Origin: an uncultured Alphaproteobacteria bacterium
Lineage (GTDB): Bacteria; Pseudomonadota; Alphaproteobacteria; CADEGL01
Assembly: GCA_902826885.1 (NCBI GenBank)
Contig: CADEGL010000039.1
Location: forward strand, 1-33,365
Length of the DNA: 33,365 nucleotides
Direction of reading: 5' to 3'
Below the pieces are notes generated by a model, which saw only the letters and a program-made list of their open reading frames with translations, was not told the origin of the DNA and did no database searches. This document shows positions 16,941 to 30,378 of this stretch, piece after piece. The position numbers and the translations under genes were made by a program. Within the stretch, counting starts at the first letter, position 1. Each line of letters begins with the position of its first letter.

Positions 16941-17132
16941 ATGCCCAAGAGGCCCCTTACCCGCACCAATAGCGATCGTCCTCGCCGCGTCGGGCCGGAG
17001 GATGAGGACCGGCAGAGCCAGCTGGACGATGGCAAGCACGAGACTGTCGAGGATGTCTTGAAGGACGGCGGGAGGCGCGCAACCGAAGAAGCCGCGGGCG
17101 ATACGGATTGCGGTGGCTTGCCCCGCCGCTAA
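16941..17132 (+). CDS. Small hydrophilic protein, unknown
   Basis: A 63-residue, highly charged protein with Asp/Glu/Arg/Lys in almost half of its positions (GPEDEDRQSQLDDGKHETVEDVLKDG within it) and no hydrophobic core. It is probably disordered or a small helical protein. GGAG lies 8 bases before the ATG. Third codon positions are GC-rich, as expected for coding, although the opposite strand also has an open frame with a hydrophobic stretch. Its TAA overlaps the TAG of the convergent receiver-kinase gene (shared bases 17129-17132). A weak EcfG-like promoter upstream supports it. Confidence 0.5.
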   Translation: MPKRPLTRTNSDRPRRVGPEDEDRQSQLDDGKHETVEDVLKDGGRRATEEAAGDTDCGGLPRR

Positions 17133-18193
17133 GGCAACGCGAAGTCGAAGACGAACCGTGTCCCGTGTGGCACGGGAGGGCGGCTCTCCGCGGCATCCAA
17201 TTTGGAAACCATGGCCTGAACGATCGTGCGGCCGAGTCCACCCCGTTTCGTCCGAAGCGCGTCTTCCGGCGGCATGCCGATGCCTTCGTCCTCGACGATC
17301 AAGGTCGCGTTTTTCTCATCCTTCCGCCGCAGCTCGACGCGAATCGGGCCGTTGCCGTCCGGATAAGCATGTTTTCGTGCGTTAAGCACCAATTCCGTCA
17401 CGATCATGCCGACGGCCACCGCCCGGTCGGGGGTGGTCATCATTTCGTCGGCGTTGAATTGGACCTGATTTACGGACTCGTCTTCCATCGCGCGAGAGAT
17501 ATCGTCCATCAAGAGCCGAAGATAATCGCCGAGCGCGACGGCCTGCACGTCGGTGGAGTTGTAAAGACGGCGATGCACTTGGCCAATGGCCGCGACGCGG
17601 CTGCCGGCGGCCAGCAACGCGTCCTTCACGTCGGGGTTGGATTGGGCGTGGGCCTTCATATTAAGCAGCGATACGGCCAGTTGAAGGCTGTTGCTGACAC
17701 GATGATTGACCTCGCGCATCAGCAAGGCACGCTCGTTTGCCAATGCCTCGAACTTATCGCGCGCTTCTCGCACTTCGGCCTGCGCGGCCTCGCGCAGCAA
17801 GCGCAGCTCCCGCGCGGCCAACGATGATTCGATGGCCGCGCGTAGAAGCGGCAGGAATGTGCCCGAGACGTCCTTGATCACATAGTCAGCCGCTCCCGCT
17901 TTCAACGCGGCCACCGCGACGCGCCCCTCCGTAGTGCCCGTGACGTAGACGACCGGAGGTGGATTCGGCCGTTTCCGAATCTCGCCGAGGGTCGCCAGGC
18001 CGTCCTTGCCTTCCATGTAATGATCGAGCGCGACCAGGTCGAACTCCCGCTCGCTCAGGCACCGCAGGCCGTCGGCGCCGCAGGTCGCCGTCTCGACCTC
18101 ATAGCCGTAGCGCGCCAGATGCTTCTGGACGAGACGTCCGATCCCGGCGTCGTCGTCGATATAGAGAATGCGCGTGGGAGCTTTGTCGTTCAT
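17129..18193 (-). CDS. Receiver-HisKA_2 histidine kinase
   Basis: A soluble 354-residue signalling protein with a receiver followed by a kinase. The receiver (about 8-122) has acidic DDD at 13-15, phospho-acceptor Asp57 (VALDHYM) and Lys107. After a coiled helix (125-155) comes a HisKA_2 dimerisation domain with His164 in REVNHRVSNSLQL, the hallmark of HWE/HisKA_2 kinases. The HATPase domain has TELVLNARKHAY, DEGIGM and GGLGRTIV. It is the last gene of a four-gene operon; its ATG overlaps the preceding TGA (ATGA at 18190-18193), so translation is coupled. HisKA_2 kinases commonly control the alphaproteobacterial general stress response through PhyR, and it may do so here (inference). Confidence 0.93.
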   Translation of the reverse strand: MNDKAPTRILYIDDDAGIGRLVQKHLARYGYEVETATCGADGLRCLSEREFDLVALDHYMEGKDGLATLGEIRKRPNPPPVVYVTGTTEGRVAVAALKAGAADYVIKDVSGTFLPLLRAAIESSLAARELRLLREAAQAEVREARDKFEALANERALLMREVNHRVSNSLQLAVSLLNMKAHAQSNPDVKDALLAAGSRVAAIGQVHRRLYNSTDVQAVALGDYLRLLMDDISRAMEDESVNQVQFNADEMMTTPDRAVAVGMIVTELVLNARKHAYPDGNGPIRVELRRKDEKNATLIVEDEGIGMPPEDALRTKRGGLGRTIVQAMVSKLDAAESRPPVPHGTRFVFDFALP

Positions 18194-18624
18194 GCAGCCG
18201 GAACTTGGATCACCGCGAAGAACAATCCCAATTGGCGGATCGCGTTGGCGAAGTTGTCGTAGTTGACCGGTTTCGTAATGTAGACATTGGCGCCGAGATC
18301 ATAGCAGCGCTGGATTTCCGCCTTGTCATCCGTCGTGGTCAAGACGACGACGGGTGTGCATCGCAGGCCGGGCGATTCCTTGACCCGTCTTAGAATTTCG
18401 GTACCGCTCATGTCTGGAAGGTTCAAATCTAACAGAATGAGCAGCGCCTTGCCTTGGGCGATGCTGTCCTTGCCTTCGCCGAACAGGTAGTTCACGGCGT
18501 CGGTACCGTTGGTGAAGGACGTGATGGGGTTGTTGACGCCCGCGCGCCGGATATTCTTTTCGATCAAACGCGCATGGCCCTCGTCGTCTTCGATCATCAC
18601 GATCGTCACGAGTTTTTCGTTCAT
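18190..18624 (-). CDS. Single-domain response regulator (Rcp1-like)
   Basis: A 144-residue stand-alone receiver. It has acidic EDD at 12-14, phospho-acceptor Asp66 (LLDLNLPDMSG), the TTTDD switch segment and Lys in YITKPVNY. It has the longer alpha-4/beta-5 region and final helix typical of Rcp1-like regulators that accept phosphate from membrane or phytochrome-like kinases. There is no output domain, so it probably shuttles phosphate. ATG at 18624 is favoured: its AGAGGA Shine-Dalgarno overlaps the stop of the upstream CHASE3 kinase (8-base gap). It overlaps the next gene by four bases. Confidence 0.93.
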   Translation of the reverse strand: MNEKLVTIVMIEDDEGHARLIEKNIRRAGVNNPITSFTNGTDAVNYLFGEGKDSIAQGKALLILLDLNLPDMSGTEILRRVKESPGLRCTPVVVLTTTDDKAEIQRCYDLGANVYITKPVNYDNFANAIRQLGLFFAVIQVPAA

Positions 18625-18632
18625 CTTTCCTC

Positions 18633-20126
18633 TCAATCCTCCAAGACCAGCGCGCGGGGCAGGATGACGGTGAACACGCTGCCCTTGCCCAGCTCGCTAT
18701 CGATTCCAATGCGCCCGCCCAAGCGCCGGACCAGCATGCGCACATGCGCCAGTCCGATGCCCTCGCCCGGCCGATCCTGTTGGCCCGAGCGACGGAAAAG
18801 CTCGAAAATCCGTTCGCTGTCCTTGACGTCGATGCCGCGCCCGTTGTCGCTCACGCGAACGATGACGAAATTGCCCTTCTCGGTGGCGGAGACTTCGATC
18901 TCGCCCTTCACGCCCGGGCGCAGGTACTTAAGGGCATTGTCGAGAAGATTCGAGAAAATCTGCTCGATCGCCAGGCGATCCGTGGCGATCGTCGGCAAGG
19001 GCCGGATCGAGATGGTGGCATCGGTCGATTGGAGCTGATGGGCCAGCGTGCTGCGGATGGAACGGATCGTGGCGTCCAGATCGATCGGCTCGACCTTGAA
19101 CTCCTGATGGCCGACCCGGGACAAGCGCAGAATCGCCGTGATGAGCCGGTCCATTTTGCCAATGGCGGTCTTGATGAAACCCAACGCTTCATCGAAGTCC
19201 TTTCCGGTCTCCTCGATTTCCGCCTGAGCGCCGCTTGCCTTCACGCGGTCGAACATATCTTGCCGCAGCGCCTCGAGTTCGCTGGTGAAGCCCATGATGT
19301 TCACCAGGGGGGACCGGAGGTCGTGGCTCACGATATAGGCGAAGCGCTGAATCTCCTGGTTGGCGGTCTGGAGGGCCGCAGTGCGTTCCTGAACCCGCTC
19401 CTCCAGGCTCACGTTGATCAGTTCGAGTTGCTTTTGCGCCTCCCGCTGTATGGCCGCGGCGCGGCGCACCTCGGCGACGGAAACAGTCGCCAGAAATATG
19501 ATCATCAGGCCGCCGGCCAAACTCACGCCCAACAGCCATAAGCGGGTGTCTCGCGCATCTTTGCTGCGCGCCGCCAAGAGTTGGTTTTCCTCAAAGCGCA
19601 TCCGGTCGATCACACCGATGATAGCGAGCGATACCGACGGATCGTCTTCGTTTCGCATTAAAGCCAGCGCTTTGTCGGGCCGGCCGTCGATCGTCAAGGA
19701 TACCGGCGCCTGCAGTTCTTTTACGCGCAGGTCGATGAGGGACTTCAACTGGTCGGCCCGCTGGATCTGTGGAGAGTTGTCGCCCAGCAGCGTTCTCAGC
19801 TTGTCATAGGTGCCGGGAATGTCATCCAGGGCCCGGCGGTAGAGGTCGAGATACGCGGACGACCCGGTCAGGACATAGCCATATTGGCTGCTTGTCGCGC
19901 GGTGCATGAGAAGCTGAATCTCGGAAAGCTGACCACCGACTTCCACCGTATGGGTTACCCAATCGGCATCACGTTTGGCCTCATCGAAGAGCCAGACCGA
20001 GACACCGCACATGATAACGAGGATGACGAAGCCCGCGGAAAGCATCCAGACGTGCCGCGCGCCTCGCAGCCTGCCGCGAGCCGGGTGGGGGATCGTGGAT
20101 GTGAGAGCGGTCATTGTCCCGGCCAT
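18633..20126 (-). CDS. CHASE3-domain membrane histidine kinase
   Basis: A 497-residue membrane sensor. TM1 lies at about 27-47. A periplasmic CHASE3 domain occupies about 50-190 (RATSSQYGYVLTGSSAYLD is characteristic). TM2 lies at about 196-217, then a coiled linker. The HisKA domain has phospho-acceptor His268 (AYIVSHDLRSPL), the variant common in phytochrome-type kinases. The HATPase domain has FSNLLDNALKY, DNGRGI and GEGIGLAHVR. The start ATG shares one base with the stop of the upstream receiver (TGATG), giving tight coupling. It is the sensor of the four-gene operon; CHASE3 ligands are generally unknown. Confidence 0.95.
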   Translation of the reverse strand: MAGTMTALTSTIPHPARGRLRGARHVWMLSAGFVILVIMCGVSVWLFDEAKRDADWVTHTVEVGGQLSEIQLLMHRATSSQYGYVLTGSSAYLDLYRRALDDIPGTYDKLRTLLGDNSPQIQRADQLKSLIDLRVKELQAPVSLTIDGRPDKALALMRNEDDPSVSLAIIGVIDRMRFEENQLLAARSKDARDTRLWLLGVSLAGGLMIIFLATVSVAEVRRAAAIQREAQKQLELINVSLEERVQERTAALQTANQEIQRFAYIVSHDLRSPLVNIMGFTSELEALRQDMFDRVKASGAQAEIEETGKDFDEALGFIKTAIGKMDRLITAILRLSRVGHQEFKVEPIDLDATIRSIRSTLAHQLQSTDATISIRPLPTIATDRLAIEQIFSNLLDNALKYLRPGVKGEIEVSATEKGNFVIVRVSDNGRGIDVKDSERIFELFRRSGQQDRPGEGIGLAHVRMLVRRLGGRIGIDSELGKGSVFTVILPRALVLED

Positions 20127-20530
20127 CAATTTACGCTCTGAGCGAGTGCGTCACGGATAGCCTGTGCCAGAGCCGCGGGTGCGAACGGTTTGGCCAGGAA
20201 AGACGTGCGCGGCCCCGGCGCGGCGCTCATCGTTCGCCGTTCGTCGTAGCCCGTGACGAAAATGATGCGCACGTCTGGGCGCAAGGCGCGAACTTCAGCG
20301 GCCAGCTCCACGCCTGGGATATCGGGCAGGCCGATATCCGTGATCAGAATGTCCGCCCCGCCCCCGGCGCGTAAATAATCCAACGCAGCCGAGCCGTTGG
20401 CCGCGGCTGTGGTTGCATATCCCAGGTCCTTCAAGGTTTCGATGGAGGACAGGCGCATCAACTCGTCATCGTCCACGAACAGGATGCGCACCTGCGTGGC
20501 TGATTTACCGGCACATGGGGTTGCGGACAT
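20126..20530 (-). CDS. Single-domain response regulator (CheY-like)
   Basis: A 134-residue receiver and first gene of the operon. It has acidic DDD at 20-22, phospho-acceptor Asp65 (ILITDIGLPDIPG), TGYDE and Lys in FLAKPFAP. This FixJ/hybrid-type receiver sequence resembles the C-terminal receivers of hybrid kinases. ATG at 20530 is chosen because the receiver fold begins soon after; the frame upstream to 20656 covers the promoter. No output domain. It is tightly coupled to the CHASE3 kinase gene and has an EcfG-like promoter 43 bases upstream. Confidence 0.92.
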   Translation of the reverse strand: MSATPCAGKSATQVRILFVDDDELMRLSSIETLKDLGYATTAAANGSAALDYLRAGGGADILITDIGLPDIPGVELAAEVRALRPDVRIIFVTGYDERRTMSAAPGPRTSFLAKPFAPAALAQAIRDALAQSVN

Positions 20531-20572
20531 GCAATAGCGTACCGGGGGCTGGATCGGCGCAGAGCGACGGTT

Positions 20573-20598
20573 AAACCACCCGCTTGCGCGTTTGTTCC
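20573..20598 (-). promoter_or_regulatory. EcfG-like promoter for the four-gene signalling operon
   Basis: Minus strand GGAAC (20598-20594), 16-base spacer, GGTT (20577-20574) then T. The -10 element lies about 43 bases before the ATG at 20530. Confidence 0.6.
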
Positions 20599-20624
20599 AA
20601 AAAGGGAAACGCACTCCTACTCTA

Positions 20625-20636
20625 GTGCGATCGCAC
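20625..20636. promoter_or_regulatory. Perfect 12-base palindrome upstream of the signalling operon
   Basis: GTGCGATCGCAC lies 27 bases upstream of the -35 element, a usual place for an activator site. The neighbouring 20640-20701 stretch is AT-rich and otherwise empty. Confidence 0.4.
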
Positions 20637-20701
20637 GATACTTTGAAGTTTTCCACGATGGTTTGAGATTTTTGGATAAGGCATTGAATAAAAATAACAA
20701 C

Positions 20702-23700: not shown

Positions 23701-23910
23701 CCGTGAGGTCTCCTTGATCCGCGAAAGGCCATAGCATGAATTCCATAGCGACGCTTGAGAGGAATCCTTGCCGCATCGCTTTGTGATGCAAACTGCAAAT
23801 AATCGGTAGCACCTAGAAGGAATTACGGTATTCTTTCGGTAGGCGGGGGTTTAGTGGACATCCGCCGGGTATCAAGGCTCGTCGACCCACGGGGGCGTGG
23901 CGACGGGCTG

Positions 23911-24798
23911 ATGGCGCGATCGGGGGAGAAGCGCGTGCTGCACAGACGGTTTTTTCTGGCGTTCGTGGCTGTCCTGTTGGCGGCATCGGGATTTTGCGCG
24001 TCAGCGGCGATTGCCCAGCCGTCGGCATCCGCGGCCAAGCCGCCCATCATGGCGCCGGACATCAAGCGAATCTTGGACCGCGGCAAGCTGATCGTGGCCA
24101 TGACGAGCTTCGACGTGCCGCCCTTCTTCATGACGGACGCGAACGGACGCTTCTACGGCCTGGACGTCAGCTTGGCCGAGGGGATCGCGAAGAGTCTGGG
24201 CGTGCCGGTCGAATACAACCGTCAGGGCAAAAGCTTCAACGACGTGGTCGACATCGTCATTCGCGGCGATGCTGACATGGCGATTTCCAAACTCAGCCTC
24301 ACGATGGCGCGCGCCATGAAGGTGCGCTTCTCGCAGCCCTATCTCGTCCTGCGTCATGGCCTGTTGGTCAACCGGCTGGACATGGCCAAGATGGCGAAGG
24401 GCAAGGAGATGGTCGACTTCATCAAGGGCTATAACGGTTCCATCGGTGTGCTCGCGAAATCGTCATTCGTCGATTATGCGGCGGAATTCTTCCCCAAGGC
24501 GAAAGTCGTCGAGTACCCGAATTGGGAGCCAGCCCTAGTCAGCGCGGTGAGCCGCGGAGAAGTGCCCGTCGCCTATCGTGACGAGTTGGAGGTCAAGAAG
24601 GTCATTCGCGGCAATCCGACCGCGGCGCTTAACCTCCGGACGATTCTGATCGACGGAACGCGCGACGACATCGCCATCGCCGTTCCCTGGGATAGCGAGC
24701 AGCTCCTGTCGGTTGTGAATCTCTACCTTTCGCGCCAGAAGCCGCTGACGGTGAATGGGCTTCTCGACCAATACGAAGAAATCTTCACCAAGAAATGA
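23911..24798 (+). CDS. Periplasmic family-3 solute-binding protein
   Basis: Predicted periplasmic amino-acid-type binding protein (SBP_bac_3). The signal peptide ends FCASAAIAQ. The mature fold starts IMAPDIKRILDRGKLIVAM and continues FDVPPFF, FYGLDVSLAEGIAKSLGV, the ADMAISKLSLTMARAMKVRFS hinge segment and GVLAKSSFVDYA. The start is uncertain: ATG at 23911 is given, but GTG at 23935 has the better Shine-Dalgarno (GGGGGAG, 6 bases) and GTG at 23854 is also open; all give a signal peptide. No ABC permease or ATPase is present. Instead a DAACS-type secondary transporter follows after 42 bases, so the pair probably works together. The ligand is likely an amino acid or dicarboxylate. Confidence 0.88.
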   Translation: MARSGEKRVLHRRFFLAFVAVLLAASGFCASAAIAQPSASAAKPPIMAPDIKRILDRGKLIVAMTSFDVPPFFMTDANGRFYGLDVSLAEGIAKSLGVPVEYNRQGKSFNDVVDIVIRGDADMAISKLSLTMARAMKVRFSQPYLVLRHGLLVNRLDMAKMAKGKEMVDFIKGYNGSIGVLAKSSFVDYAAEFFPKAKVVEYPNWEPALVSAVSRGEVPVAYRDELEVKKVIRGNPTAALNLRTILIDGTRDDIAIAVPWDSEQLLSVVNLYLSRQKPLTVNGLLDQYEEIFTKK

Positions 24799-24840
24799 CC
24801 ATGCGCCGCATAGCGGCCTCAAATCGGCAAGGTGGCGAGT

Positions 24841-26214
24841 ATGGCTAAAGCAGAAACCGCGGGTGTGACCCGGAAGCGCGTCTACGATTTGGGGCTCGTG
24901 GGAAAGCTTCTCTCCAGTTCATGGGTGATCTTCGCCAGCCTTTTACTCGGTCTCTATATCGGATTCTTCCATAAGGATCTGGCAGCGGCCATCGGCCCCT
25001 TCGGCACGGTCTATCTGGCCCTCCTGAAGATGTGCCTTCTGCCTTTCCTGATCTCCGCAATCACCGTGAGTCTGGTGAAATTGCTCAAGACCCATACGGC
25101 GGCCAACAGCCTGCGCCGCATCGTCGCCGTCTTCGTCGGCGGTCTTTTGCTGTGCACGCTCTATGCGGTGGTCTTCGGCGCCGTCGAAGGGCCCGGCCGC
25201 GACCTCGATGAGAGCTCCCGCGCCGTCCTCGGCAACATGGTGGACCGTTCACCCTATGCGGTCGATCTGGAGATGTCGCTGACCGGTCCGACCGTGGAGA
25301 AAAAAAGCGAGAGCAGCACGGAAACGGTCATTCGACAGCTCATCCCTGACAACATCTTCAACGCGCTCAGCAGTGGCGACAGCCTGAAGGTCCTCTTCTT
25401 CGCGATCATCTTCGGCGCCGCGGTCGGGTTCAGCTCCCGCCACGTGGGCGACGGCCTGTCCGCGACGTTGGATACGATCTACCATGCTTGCCAGCGCGTC
25501 ATTCAGTGGGTCAATTACGTCTTGCCCTTCGCGCTTTGCGCGCTTGTGGCCAGCCAAATCGCCATCGTGGGGCTTGAGCCGCTGGTCGCGATGGTCCGCT
25601 TCATCGTGTCCTTTACGCTTGCCGTTGTCCTCTTGATGGTGGTCTGCAGTCTCATCATCTGGGCGCGCGGCCGCGTCAGCTATTTCCAATCGATCATGGC
25701 ACTGCGTGAAGCCGTCCTGATCGCGATCGGTACGCGCAGCAGCATCGCGTGTATCCCCTCCGTCATTCGAGCGATGGAAAAGGATTTGGGTTTCGACAAG
25801 ACGATGGTCGAATTGGTGGCGCCGCTCAGCATCACCATTTGCCGTTTTGGCCCCACGCTCTATTACGGCGTCGCGACGATCTTCGTGGCGCAGCTCTACG
25901 GCATCCAGCTAGGGGTCGCCGAGTACGTCTCGATTTTTATCGGCTCCTTCCTGGCGGGCTTGGCATCCGCAGGCACCACCGGCATCCTGACCATTACGTT
26001 GCTGAGCCTCGTGTTCGCGCCCTTGGGCCTGCCGCTGGAGGCGGCCCTGGTGCTGTTCATCACCATCGATCCGCTGGTCGACATCGTGCGGACGGTGGCG
26101 ATCGTCTACCCGAACTGCGCGGCGGTGGCGATGGTGTGTGGCCCGGACAAAGAATGGGTGCCGCCGGGCGACGCCAAGCAACCGTCCGGCCAGACGAGCT
26201 CCGCCGCGGCCTAG
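24841..26214 (+). CDS. DAACS/SDF-family secondary transporter, divergent
   Basis: A 457-residue membrane protein of the GltP/DctA/EAAT fold (dicarboxylate/amino acid:cation symporter). ATG at 24841 has AAGGTGG 5 bases upstream; GTG at 24832 is less likely. Hairpin 1 keeps TRSS (298-301). In TM7 the nearly invariant NMDGT is replaced by CRFGP (334-338). In TM8 Asp410, Asp414, Arg417 and Thr418 are kept, but the Asn and Asp that help bind sodium in GltPh read Ile421 and Asn425. Coupling to sodium by the usual sites therefore looks lost. A charged insert (about 135-165, EKKSESSTET) follows an early helix. It is co-directional with the binding-protein gene and overlaps the convergent racemase gene by four bases. 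Confidence 0.88.
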   Translation: MAKAETAGVTRKRVYDLGLVGKLLSSSWVIFASLLLGLYIGFFHKDLAAAIGPFGTVYLALLKMCLLPFLISAITVSLVKLLKTHTAANSLRRIVAVFVGGLLLCTLYAVVFGAVEGPGRDLDESSRAVLGNMVDRSPYAVDLEMSLTGPTVEKKSESSTETVIRQLIPDNIFNALSSGDSLKVLFFAIIFGAAVGFSSRHVGDGLSATLDTIYHACQRVIQWVNYVLPFALCALVASQIAIVGLEPLVAMVRFIVSFTLAVVLLMVVCSLIIWARGRVSYFQSIMALREAVLIAIGTRSSIACIPSVIRAMEKDLGFDKTMVELVAPLSITICRFGPTLYYGVATIFVAQLYGIQLGVAEYVSIFIGSFLAGLASAGTTGILTITLLSLVFAPLGLPLEAALVLFITIDPLVDIVRTVAIVYPNCAAVAMVCGPDKEWVPPGDAKQPSGQTSSAAA

Positions 26215-26930
26215 GTTTCGGCGGTCCCGCGCCGGCCATGCGCCCAGGCCACGCAAGCCTGGGCTAGAGCCGCGGTGGAATCGACGTAACGCGCGGTCGC
26301 CTCGGGACTCGCATCGGCGAGCGCCAGGGGAATTTCAGTACACCCCAGCACGATCATTCGTGCGCCTCGATCGCCGAGACGCCGCGCGGCGTCGCCCAAC
26401 TTCCTCTTCGCGGACGCCAGATCGCCGGCTTTCACAGACACGATGCCGGGCATGACCAGTTCGGCCATCTCCGTGTCGCTCGGCAGCACGCAGTGATAGC
26501 CGCTCCGCTGGAGATACCCCTGGTAGATTCCTGTGTGCAGGGTGCCCGCGGTTCCCATCACGCCGACCGCGCCGCTGTCGATCCCCCTCTCCCGCAGCAG
26601 GTCGCAGACACTTCCCACGATATGCAGGATTGGGACCCGGCTGGCGGCGGCCATCTCGTCGTACCAGTAATGCGCGGTGTTGCAGGGGATCGCGATGGCT
26701 TCGGCGCCGGCGTTCTGTAGGCGCGCGATGCCGTCCAGCAAAGCGGGCAATGGAGATTCGCCCCTCCCCATGATGGCGGTCGAGCGGTCGGGGACCTGCG
26801 GGTTGGAATAGACCAGCGCCGGGATATGGTCCTGGTCGCGCGACGCGGGCGTCAGTTCGGTCAGCTTCCGCATGAAATCCGCGGTCGCCAACGGGCCCAT
26901 GCCGCCAAGGACGCCCAATAGCTTGGGCAT
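26211..26930 (-). CDS. Aspartate/glutamate racemase family protein
   Basis: A PLP-independent two-cysteine racemase of 239 residues. It has the N-terminal GVLGGMGPLATADF motif. Catalytic Cys83 lies in IPCNTAH and Cys197 in LGCTEIPL, and there is a GVMGTAGT segment. This is the aspartate-racemase (RacD/YgeA) branch rather than MurI, judging from GGMGP and CTEIP. Predicted to interconvert L- and D-Asp or a related amino acid. It starts 2 bases after the stop of the adenylate cyclase gene, so both are one transcript. It converges on, and overlaps by four bases, the transporter gene. Confidence 0.93.
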   Translation of the reverse strand: MPKLLGVLGGMGPLATADFMRKLTELTPASRDQDHIPALVYSNPQVPDRSTAIMGRGESPLPALLDGIARLQNAGAEAIAIPCNTAHYWYDEMAAASRVPILHIVGSVCDLLRERGIDSGAVGVMGTAGTLHTGIYQGYLQRSGYHCVLPSDTEMAELVMPGIVSVKAGDLASAKRKLGDAARRLGDRGARMIVLGCTEIPLALADASPEATARYVDSTAALAQACVAWAHGRRGTAET

Positions 26931-26932
26931 GC

Positions 26933-29092
26933 CTATTTCTCCTGCATCTCCATGACGCCGCTCCAGTTGGCGTCGGGTGGATTAGCCAGCAGCTCACGAC
27001 AGCGCTCGGCGAACTTCGCCACCACCCGGTCTTCCGGATAGGCCTCGGCGGCGTGCGTATAGGTACGCAGCGCCTTTTCCCATTTGCGGTCCATATAGGC
27101 GAAGAATGCCTTGTTGGTGCGCGCGGCCAGGTCACGCTGGCCATCGGTCGCGCCGACGTCGCTGGTATCGTCCGCGGCCATCAGCTCGTACACGGTGATG
27201 CCGCCGCGACGCCCTTTCACCGCGACATGGTCGACGGGACGCATGACGAACAAATCGCCCGTCTCGCGGAACACCGCCTCGCTGACGCAGATGCGCGTGC
27301 CGTAGGCCTTGTTCACGCCCTCCAGGCGCGAGGCCACGTTCACGCCATCGCCGATGGCGGTGTAGCTCATGCGCTCGGACGATCCGATATTGCCGACCAC
27401 GACCGTGTCGGTATGGATGCCGATGCGTGCAGACAGCGTGGGTTCGCCTTCCCCTTCGAACGCTTCGTTCATCGCGTCCATCTGGCGCTGGATCAGAAGC
27501 GCGGAACGGCAAGCATTGGTGGCATGCTCGACCTGAGGCAGCGGCGCGCCCCAGAAGGCCATGACCGAGTCGCCGATGAACTTGTCGATCGTGCCGTGAT
27601 TGCGCAGCACGATCTTGGTGACCATGTCGAAATGCTGCGAGATCAGCAGCATCAGGTTGCGGGCGGGCAAGCGCTCGGACAGGCGCGAAAAGCTGGCAAG
27701 ATCCGAGAACATGATGGTCAGGCGCTGGGTTTGGCCGCCCAATTCCATCGACTTGCCGCTGGCCAGAAGCTGCTGTACCAGGCCACGCGGTACGAAGCGG
27801 GAAAACGAGTGAATCGTCGTCTTCATGGCGCGCATCGCGTCGATCAGCTCGCGAATCTCGGTGATCCGAGAGCTGATCTTGACGTCGTCCTCGAGCGCCA
27901 ATTCGCGGATCTTCTTCGTCTCGCCGATGACCTGCCGGATCGGCCTGGTGATGCGGCGCGACAGATACGCTACGGCCAGGATCGCGATCAGGCCCACGCC
28001 GGCCGAAATCATCATGATGTCCTGGGTGGTCCGCTTAAGGTCTCCGACGAAATCGTTCTCCGGAACCAGGATCACGATCGTCCATTGTTTCTGGAATGCG
28101 CGCGGGAAAGATTGGAACGACGCCAGGTAGGTGACGCCGTTGAATTTGTAGCTGAAGCGCTCTCCCGCACCTTCCTTCCGGCGTTCGAAGGCCTCGACGA
28201 TATAGGGTTCGCCCAAATCCTTGATGGTCGGCAATGCGACCGTTAGCCCGTCCTGACGCACAGAGCGCCCGGCATCGGGAAAGGCCACGACCTCGCCCTT
28301 GTCGCCGACGATGAAGGCAATTCCGTGCTTGCCGATCTTCTGGCGCTTGAGGAAGGCCGACATGCTTTCGAGCGTGATGTCGGCGCCGACGACACCGATG
28401 AACTTGTTGCTCCGGTCGCGCACCGCGCGGCTGATCGTGATGCCGGGTTTTCGGTTGCTCGCGAAAACGTAGATGTCCGACAGGAAGGAGAATTCACTGT
28501 CCTTGGCGCCATTGTAAAACGGGCGCTTGCGCGGATCATAGGCTACGTTGCGCAGTGCTTCGACGCCCGTCTGGGTGTTCCAGTCGCTGATATAGCGGTA
28601 GGAATCGATCGATTCGGCTCCCTTCCGGTCGAGGGTGCGCAGGACGAACCGGGAGCCGGGCGCAACCGGACTGTTATTGGGCCCGAAGGTGGCCGCGTTG
28701 TCGGGAATGCGTTGGGCCTGGATGAACCGGCCATTCTCGTCGAAGCCGATATAGGCGCTGTAGACGTGCGGGTACGATTTCAGCACCTGCAACAGGTGCC
28801 GCAGCATTTCGGGCTGGTGCAGGAGGTTTTCGTGGAATTGGCCGATGACGGCCAGTTCGTCCACGGCCGCCGAGACCGGTTCCAAAAGATAGACGGTGTT
28901 ATCGATGGTCGATGATGTCGCCGAATCGAGGAAGGAATCGGCGAACTGCAACACCAGATGGGAATTGCGCTCGTAGGTGTACCAGGTGATGGACGCGCAG
29001 ATGAACACCAGCAACGCAACGAACGACGTCGCGATGCTGACCTGCAGCGATAGACCGCGGCGGCGCGGTTCTTGGGCGGCGCTTTCCGACAT
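26933..29092 (-). CDS. Membrane adenylate cyclase: dCache-HAMP-class III cyclase
   Basis: Makes cAMP in response to a periplasmic ligand. From the ATG at 29092 (719 residues; 29134 is possible, no start has a good Shine-Dalgarno): TM1 about 18-38, a double-Cache sensor about 40-345, TM2 about 358-378, HAMP about 379-430. The cyclase domain (about 455-625) keeps metal ligands Asp464 (MFSDLASF) and Asp508 (IGDSVMAF), adenine-binding Lys504 with Thr578, and transition-state Asn585 and Arg589 (GVNVASRLEG). This fits ATP rather than GTP. A TPR-like C-terminus (WEKALRTYTHAAEAYPED) follows. It is first in an operon with the Asp/Glu racemase. dCache domains often bind amino acids or carboxylates. Confidence 0.93.
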   Translation of the reverse strand: MSESAAQEPRRRGLSLQVSIATSFVALLVFICASITWYTYERNSHLVLQFADSFLDSATSSTIDNTVYLLEPVSAAVDELAVIGQFHENLLHQPEMLRHLLQVLKSYPHVYSAYIGFDENGRFIQAQRIPDNAATFGPNNSPVAPGSRFVLRTLDRKGAESIDSYRYISDWNTQTGVEALRNVAYDPRKRPFYNGAKDSEFSFLSDIYVFASNRKPGITISRAVRDRSNKFIGVVGADITLESMSAFLKRQKIGKHGIAFIVGDKGEVVAFPDAGRSVRQDGLTVALPTIKDLGEPYIVEAFERRKEGAGERFSYKFNGVTYLASFQSFPRAFQKQWTIVILVPENDFVGDLKRTTQDIMMISAGVGLIAILAVAYLSRRITRPIRQVIGETKKIRELALEDDVKISSRITEIRELIDAMRAMKTTIHSFSRFVPRGLVQQLLASGKSMELGGQTQRLTIMFSDLASFSRLSERLPARNLMLLISQHFDMVTKIVLRNHGTIDKFIGDSVMAFWGAPLPQVEHATNACRSALLIQRQMDAMNEAFEGEGEPTLSARIGIHTDTVVVGNIGSSERMSYTAIGDGVNVASRLEGVNKAYGTRICVSEAVFRETGDLFVMRPVDHVAVKGRRGGITVYELMAADDTSDVGATDGQRDLAARTNKAFFAYMDRKWEKALRTYTHAAEAYPEDRVVAKFAERCRELLANPPDANWSGVMEMQEK

Positions 29093-29247
29093 GCCGGTTA
29101 CGATGATCTCCCCCGATTTCCGCAAGGATCGCATGGGGTCGCGGCGAATTCTAGACAGCAAAATTGAGGGGATGAATCGCCCGCTGTGACGGGGCGGGCC
29201 GGACCGCTATGCTCGGGCCTGGACATCTTCTTGGACGGTCTTTCGCC

Positions 29248-30378
29248 ATGAACCTCGACCAGCTCCAGACGCCCGCCCTGCTCCTCGAGCGTCCTGTGCT
29301 CGAGCGCAACATCGCGGCCATGACCGGCCGCGCGAAACGACACGGCGTTGCCCTGCGCCCGCATATGAAGACCGCGAAGTCCGCCAAGGTCGCGTCCCTG
29401 GCCACGGCCGGCAACAAGGGCGGTATCTGCGTCTCGACCGTGGCGGAAGCCGAGTATTTCGCGCGCCACGGCTTCCGCGACATCACTTACGCCTTTGGCA
29501 TCGTGCCACAGAAAATCGAGCGCCTGGCCAAGCTGCGGGCCGATGGCGTGTCGGTCCGTCTGCTGGTCGACGATGTGGCCAACGTCAAAGCCGTGGCCGA
29601 GCGGGCGAAGGCCTTAGGCGCCTCGTTTGACGTCCAGATCGAGGTCGATAGCGGCCAGAACCGAGGCGGTCTCAAGCCCGATGATCCGAAGCTTGGCGAG
29701 GTCGGCTGGGCACTGGCGGGCAGCGGCGCCTTGCGCTTTCTCGGCGTTCTGACTCACGGCGGCCACTCCTATGACTGCCGCGGCGCGGCCGATTGCCGGC
29801 GTGTAGCAGAAGAAGAGCGCGCGGCCATCGTAGCCGCCGCCGAGCGCTTGTCGGCGGCGGGCCTGCCATGCGCCGAAGTGAGTCCCGGCGCCACGCCGAA
29901 CGCGGTTCACGCCACGCGGCTGGACGGCGTTACCGAGATACGGCCCGGCAATTACATGTTCTTCGATTTGCATCAGACCGGGATCGGCTCATGCACCGTG
30001 GACGAAATCGCGGTTAGCGTTTTGACCACCGTGGTCGGCCATAACCGCGCGCATAACCGCATCGTGATCGACGCCGGCGGATTGGCGCTGTCGAAGGACA
30101 TCGGCGCGAATGAGCCGCTACCGAACACGGGTTACGGCTGGGTGATGGACCTATCCGGTAAGACGCGCATTGGCGACCTGCGCGTCGGCCGGGTCAGCCA
30201 GGAACATGGGCAGATCGAAAGCGATTCGCCCCTGCCCTTTGACCGCCTGCCGATTGGCGCGCGCGTGCGCGTTCTGCCCAACCACTCCTGCATGACCGCC
30301 GCGGCCTACGAGCACTACAACGTGCTCGATGGCGGCGCGGACGTGATCGACCAGTGGGACCGGATCAACGGCTGGTAG
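29248..30378 (+). CDS. DSD1-type PLP enzyme (D-serine dehydratase / D-threonine aldolase family)
   Basis: A fold-type III (alanine-racemase-like) PLP enzyme of 376 residues acting on D-hydroxy amino acids. The PLP Lys41 lies in RPHMKTAK. The TPALLL N-terminus, EVDSGQNRGG, LTHGGHSYD and SPGATPNA are family features. A metal site near the C-terminus has His346 and Cys348 (LPNHSC), as in eukaryotic-type D-serine dehydratase, where zinc is bound. D-Ser deamination, D-Thr aldol cleavage and 3-hydroxy-D-aspartate cleavage are all possible. ATG at 29248 matches the family start; the Shine-Dalgarno is weak. It is divergent from the cyclase-racemase operon and overlaps the convergent acyl-CoA dehydrogenase by 14 bases. 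Confidence 0.92.
   Translation: MNLDQLQTPALLLERPVLERNIAAMTGRAKRHGVALRPHMKTAKSAKVASLATAGNKGGICVSTVAEAEYFARHGFRDITYAFGIVPQKIERLAKLRADGVSVRLLVDDVANVKAVAERAKALGASFDVQIEVDSGQNRGGLKPDDPKLGEVGWALAGSGALRFLGVLTHGGHSYDCRGAADCRRVAEEERAAIVAAAERLSAAGLPCAEVSPGATPNAVHATRLDGVTEIRPGNYMFFDLHQTGIGSCTVDEIAVSVLTTVVGHNRAHNRIVIDAGGLALSKDIGANEPLPNTGYGWVMDLSGKTRIGDLRVGRVSQEHGQIESDSPLPFDRLPIGARVRVLPNHSCMTAAAYEHYNVLDGGADVIDQWDRINGW

Follow-up and report, generated by a model that had tools for sequence, protein, structure and literature searches.

How does a protein with the fold of the sodium-coupled glutamate transporters work when the residues that hold sodium have been replaced? The question is raised by a single gene in the window, by which we mean the whole stretch of 33,365 nucleotides analysed here. 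An earlier note on this DNA had described the gene product as a divergent SDF-family carrier, and we asked what it is related to, which genes accompany it and how it might operate.

Results

An SDF-family protein without the sodium sites

The features on which the argument rests are the following.

23854..24798, + strand: SBP_bac_3 periplasmic substrate-binding protein (SBP) with a signal peptide recognised by eye at its N-terminus (PF00497, E 1.8e-17), directly upstream of the SDF gene
24832..26214, + strand: SDF-family (DAACS fold) membrane protein without sodium sites (PF00375, E 1.6e-67, above cut-off)
25732..25743, + strand: HP1 tip T301-R-S-S304, TRSS kept (GltPh T275-S278; alignments)
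25840-25854, + strand: TM7 break C337-R338-F339-G340-P341, replacing GltPh N310-M-D-G-T314, NMDGT (phmmer, MAFFT, AF2)
25957..25983, + strand: HP2 tip G376-LASAGTT-G384 (GltPh S349-G357; alignments)
26068-26115, + strand: TM8, D413 to N428 (alignment to GltPh)
26211..26930, - strand: protein of the cysteate racemase (CuyB) family; its gene and the SDF gene are convergent (NF052483, 268.5 bits, cut-off 190)
26933..29161, - strand: class III adenylate cyclase of dCache-HAMP type, on the strand of the racemase gene and two bases upstream of it (PF02743, PF00672, PF00211)

The SDF protein is 460 residues long from a GTG start codon that lies 33 bases beyond the stop codon of the SBP gene, and it matches PF00375 over the full length of the profile (positions 3-384 of 387; 228.7 bits against a curated cut-off of 27.9). 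A search of the source genome found no second SDF gene, so that the window holds the sole copy. Our numbering starts at the GTG codon; the earlier note counted from Met4, and 3 must be added to its positions. An AF2 model built from six sequences, which we regard as weak to moderate (pLDDT 62.8, pTM 0.60), shows the TM7 helix broken at 337-338, and its best Foldseek matches were all of the Glt/EAAT type (GltPh, GltTk and EAAT folds; E 1e-12, TM up to 0.72).

Residue equivalences were taken from phmmer against GltPh and the ancestral aspartate transporter and from MAFFT, which gave the same register in TM7; in the phmmer comparison with PDB sequences, TICRFGPTLYYG of the SDF protein aligns under TINMDGTALYQG of GltPh. 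Once the numbering was shifted, every residue that had been listed for the TM7 break and for TM8 proved right: CRFGP stands in place of NMDGT, the equivalents of GltPh D390, D394, R397 and T398 are kept in TM8 (D413, D417, R420 and T421), and I424 and N428 replace N401 and D405. The statement that the sodium-site residues are mostly gone also holds, as the residues whose side chains bind Na1 and Na3 in GltPh (N310, D312 and D405) are all replaced in the protein, and no NMDGT was found elsewhere when the whole protein was read directly. The hairpins are kept, as had been claimed, with R302 and S304 in HP1 (GltPh R276 and S278) and G381 in HP2 (GltPh G354). In TM3, where the register is uncertain, GltPh Y89/T92/S93 are replaced by L/C/T according to phmmer or by F/G/L according to MAFFT.

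Sodium-coupled glutamate transporters carry the signature [S/T]92-93, N310, [M/S]311, [D/E]312 and [D/E]405, and proton-coupled ones a hydrophobic residue at 92, L311 and N405 (PMC12668577). The window protein departs from the first at C337, R338, F339 and N428, its TM3 residues being of uncertain register, and from the second at R338, whereas N428 fits. It is conceivable that sodium coupling persists through other ligands or through the backbone-lined Na2 site: most of the atoms that form Na2 belong to the backbone, T335 and S379 (GltPh T308 and T352) are kept, and TRAP carriers, which also work with a binding protein, are sodium-dependent. With all three Na1/Na3 side-chain ligands missing, however, we consider this improbable. 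Since T314 and N401, which help to bind aspartate in GltPh, are replaced by Pro and Ile, the substrate may differ from aspartate or may not be bound.

A subfamily with arginine in the TM7 break

Plasmids of Paraburkholderia, Cupriavidus and Gemmobacter encode relatives that are 38-42% identical in sequence. The subfamily is uncommon, occurring in only 16 of the 385 genomes sampled from the class, 9 of 398 from the phylum and 5 of 321 from another class; in the 385- and 398-genome searches its members scored above about 215 bits and ordinary SDFs below 185. A scan of genome contigs matched only the same-genus genome, and a search of viral contigs found no member. In all, the subfamily comprises at least 40 proteins across several classes of the source phylum. 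It forms one side of a branch (UFBoot/SH-aLRT 100/100) in a tree of 67 rows built without the columns of the TM7 motif and of residues 401 and 405, and a bigger, quick tree of 110 rows, 40 of them subfamily members, is concordant. Within the glutamate-transporter family, the window protein is a member of a branch that is apparently undescribed.

Among the 40 members, position 311 is Arg in 32, Gln in 5, Pro in 2 and Leu in 1; D312 and D405 are absent from all, N310 is kept in 5 (absent from 35) and N401 in 3. Ordinary SDFs (n=69), by comparison, keep N310 in 67 cases and have Met or Leu at 311 in 67. A pattern that recurs in this way is not a chance change in a single gene, an explanation that we reject. 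The Arg that the earlier note saw entering the unwound part of TM7 does sit at the M311 site, but it is no intruder, being the usual residue of the subfamily.

Nor is the gene in decay. Although conserved motif residues have been lost, the reading frame is intact, the same-genus orthologue also carries CRFGP (MAFFT), comparison with that orthologue gives a dN/dS of 0.11, which indicates purifying selection, and R311 is found across the clade; these data refute the idea of a pseudogene, to which we give next to no credence. The view that this is a divergent subfamily is therefore upheld by monophyly, frame and selection alike.

A more serious alternative is a proton-coupled symporter fed by the SBP, in which R338 or an aspartate would carry the proton. 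In its favour, the Asn in place of D405 is part of the proton signature of PMC12668577 and is shared by 23 of the 40 relatives; but the same Asn occurs in 22 of the 69 ordinary SDFs, the signature requires L311 where the window protein and 32 of 40 relatives have Arg, and Arg is a poor proton carrier. We think this reading unlikely.

A few SDFs that are not linked to an SBP gene lack NMDGT as well. One, outside the subfamily (L123:6323-7606, - strand), reads FRFTG in TM7, with no SBP gene nearby, and has apparently lost NMDGT on its own, again with an Arg at 311; another (in L025) has GKDGT in place of NMDGT.

Linkage to a binding-protein gene

In 37 of the 40 members the SDF gene has an SBP_bac_3 gene as its direct neighbour or at a distance of two genes within the cluster; two exceptions (L099 and L107) begin at a contig edge, and only L109 is a true one. 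All 20 of 20 Burkholderiaceae-type genomes have the SBP gene upstream of the SDF gene and an Arg in TM7. Such conserved linkage of SBP and carrier genes is one mark of SBP-dependent secondary transporters, the other being that transport depends on the SBP. Among ordinary SDFs, an SBP gene was within reach in 1 of 69 (L079), on the opposite strand, most of these loci having been viewed with 1.5 kb flanks, which cover a direct neighbour rather than an SBP gene beyond an intervening one. With the two contig-edge cases set aside, Fisher's test gives p = 2e-26, for rows that share descent and so are not independent. The reciprocal search, of the SBP alone against 72,556 plasmids, returned exactly the same four loci and no others.

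All SBP-linked members fall in one clade, the members that keep N310 are already SBP-linked, except one at a contig edge, and unlinked SDFs without NMDGT exist, which argues that the link arose once and was kept by descent rather than by repeated convergence; as one evolutionary event, it cannot be counted as a repeated association. The correlation between NMDGT loss and an adjacent SBP gene that had been suggested as a check thus exists, but as a single event, and loss of NMDGT as such predicts an SBP gene only in part.

The SBP is itself under constraint, with a dN/dS of 0.095 against the same-genus genome. Its residues R153 and D243, which we take to bind the alpha-carboxylate and the alpha-amine of amino acids as in the SBP_bac_3 family, are conserved in 52 and 48 of 54 aligned sequences, respectively. 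We also considered whether the SBP might belong to an ABC system and rejected this, as no ABC permease was present among the window genes scanned around it. Variants of the arrangement were seen at two loci, one with an SDF gene followed by two tandem SBP_bac_3 genes (L117:6204-9241, + strand) and one with a convergent SDF pair, of motifs NRHGS and CRFGP, sharing a single SBP gene between them (L098:4324-8082).

Racemase and cyclase genes

Beyond the SDF gene lie the racemase and the cyclase, a connection absent from the earlier note. The window racemase passes the NCBIfam equivalog cut-off for CuyB, an assignment that is a prediction from sequence, and the racemases tested in relatives also lie above the cysteate racemase cut-off of NCBIfam. 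The cyclases keep the metal-binding Asp residues of class III enzymes as well as the Lys, Thr, Asn and Arg, so that the catalytic residues are intact, and the window cyclase has a dN/dS of 0.076 against the same-genus genome.

Three gene orders recur in the subfamily: (i) SBP-SDF alone (L104, L110, L118, L119 and others); (ii) SBP-SDF-racemase-SDF2 (L033-L036 and L096), or the same without SDF2 (L100 and L101); and (iii) SBP, dCache-HAMP-cyclase and SDF, in nine genomes (L105, L106, L108 and L111-L116), in each of which the clustered cyclase is the genome's one full-length match to that of the window. The SDF gene of L106 is divergently oriented in its cluster. The window, in which the SBP-SDF pair faces a convergent cyclase-racemase pair, combines elements of orders (ii) and (iii); its SDF falls in the racemase clade of the tree, and its cyclase does not group by score with the operon-borne cyclases. 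The cyclase is not generally supported as a fixed partner, since its family elsewhere also adjoins MFS, tRNA-synthetase and metallo-hydrolase genes.

These gene orders bear on a further alternative, that the SBP and the SDF protein form a sensor rather than a carrier, relaying ligand occupancy to the Cache cyclase or another partner with no net transport. The nine SBP-cyclase-SDF clusters, the intact catalytic residues, the loss of R276, R311 and R397 in one cyclase-linked branch (L108 and L111-L113) and the finding that DctA co-regulates DcuS independently of transport (PMC8307970) all speak for it. Yet the window protein keeps the substrate residues R302, D417 and R420, its cyclase lies on the opposite strand, the racemase suggests that the ligand is metabolised, and many relatives have no adjoining cyclase, whose family stands beside unrelated genes too. 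For the window we doubt this reading, about as much as proton coupling; some branches may nevertheless be pure sensors, and the role is more likely for the branch with Gln or Leu at 311, Gln at 276 and Gly at 397.

Several neighbouring observations deserve record. The second SDFs that follow the racemase gene (L036:7993-9333, + strand, and SDF2 of L033-L035 and L096) are more divergent, with VRAGS, LRAGS and GRFGM in TM7, which points to a second carrier or to a hetero-oligomer. The racemase of the same-genus genome is spread over two overlapping frames (L150:12554-13711, - strand), probably through a frameshift or an assembly error; the SBP, SDF and cyclase genes there are intact. A gene in which SBP_bac_3 is fused to Gly_transporter (PF03458) directly precedes a dCache-HAMP-cyclase of the window family at another locus (L187:5415-9208, - strand), which sets a further SBP and carrier domain next to this type of cyclase. 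The window also encodes an Alanine-racemase-N / D-serine-dehydratase type protein related to BhcC (29209-30378, + strand), a further hint of D-amino-acid or hydroxy-amino-acid metabolism next to the locus, and two histidine kinases, one with CHASE3, with a response regulator (17129-20656, - strand).

Discussion

On balance, we lean towards the view that the SBP and SDF genes encode a two-part, binding-protein-dependent, sodium-uncoupled secondary elevator carrier for an amino acid. The SBP would bind an alpha-amino acid and then dock on the SDF elevator; the neighbouring cysteate racemase suggests that this amino acid may be acidic or sulfonated. In GltPh, Na1, Na2 and Na3 come together with the substrate at the NMD loop, and M311 swings into the pocket upon sodium binding (PMC12668577). 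R338 takes the place of M311 and may be a built-in cation, so that the TM7 hinge would have no need of sodium: with N310, D312 and D405 gone, the Arg could hold the loop in a bound-like state. The analogy is with CaiT and ApcT, in which Arg262 and Lys158, respectively, occupy a sodium site (PMC5941172), and R338, placed by alignment, possibly acts as such a tethered cation. Uptake would then be uncoupled, or driven by exchange, protons or the membrane potential, with affinity and direction supplied by the SBP. In relatives with the Cache-cyclase operon, the carrier may also report its ligand to cAMP signalling.

The known systems each resemble this arrangement in part. With GltPh, GltTk and the EAATs (DAACS, PF00375) the window protein shares the fold, HP1, HP2, the TM7 break and the equivalents of D390, D394, R397 and T398 in TM8, but it lacks NMDGT, N401 and D405 and has an Arg at 311 and an SBP partner gene. 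Its best PDB sequence match is Anc-Int (PDB 9bgz and 9bh0), an ancestral SDF carrier that moves aspartate without sodium (PMC12668577); however, Anc-Int keeps all the sodium-binding residues that the window protein has lost. In TAXI-GltS and TRAP/TTT systems the SBP gene likewise adjoins the gene of an elevator-type secondary carrier, probably so for TTT (PMC12344293), whereas both partners are of unrelated families there (TAXI, DctP and TTT binding proteins) and of PF00497 and PF00375 here. In the DctA-DcuS co-sensor an SDF protein is associated with a Cache-type sensor (PMC8307970), but that sensor is a histidine kinase rather than a cyclase, no SBP takes part, and contact was shown there, whereas the window offers gene linkage. 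For CaiT and ApcT, too, a basic side chain is proposed in place of sodium, although these have the LeuT fold and the side chain was placed by structure.

The secondary carriers named as SBP partners are TRAP, TTT and TAXI-GltS, none of which uses the SDF fold (PMC12344293), and the literature searched, which lay outside subscription journals and preprint servers, gave no account of an SDF carrier linked to an SBP. We raise, tentatively and with more doubt than belief, the wider proposal that the clade is a new, SDF-fold class of SBP-dependent secondary transporter in which a conserved Arg replaces the coupling sodium, joined in some lineages by a Cache cyclase to make a three-part ligand sensor.

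Sodium-coupled elevator transport has its model in the SDF proteins. In the present clade the sodium ligands have disappeared, and the gene order, as far as it goes, points to a tie with a periplasmic binding protein. The TAXI-GltS study suggested that only elevator carriers depend on an SBP and called for more classes with which to test this (PMC12344293); the clade, whose elevator fold is the best studied of all, is a direct candidate. With it one could also ask whether an Arg fixed in the chain of an SDF protein can take the place of bound sodium, and whether a binding protein lets carriers and Cache cyclases use the same ligands.
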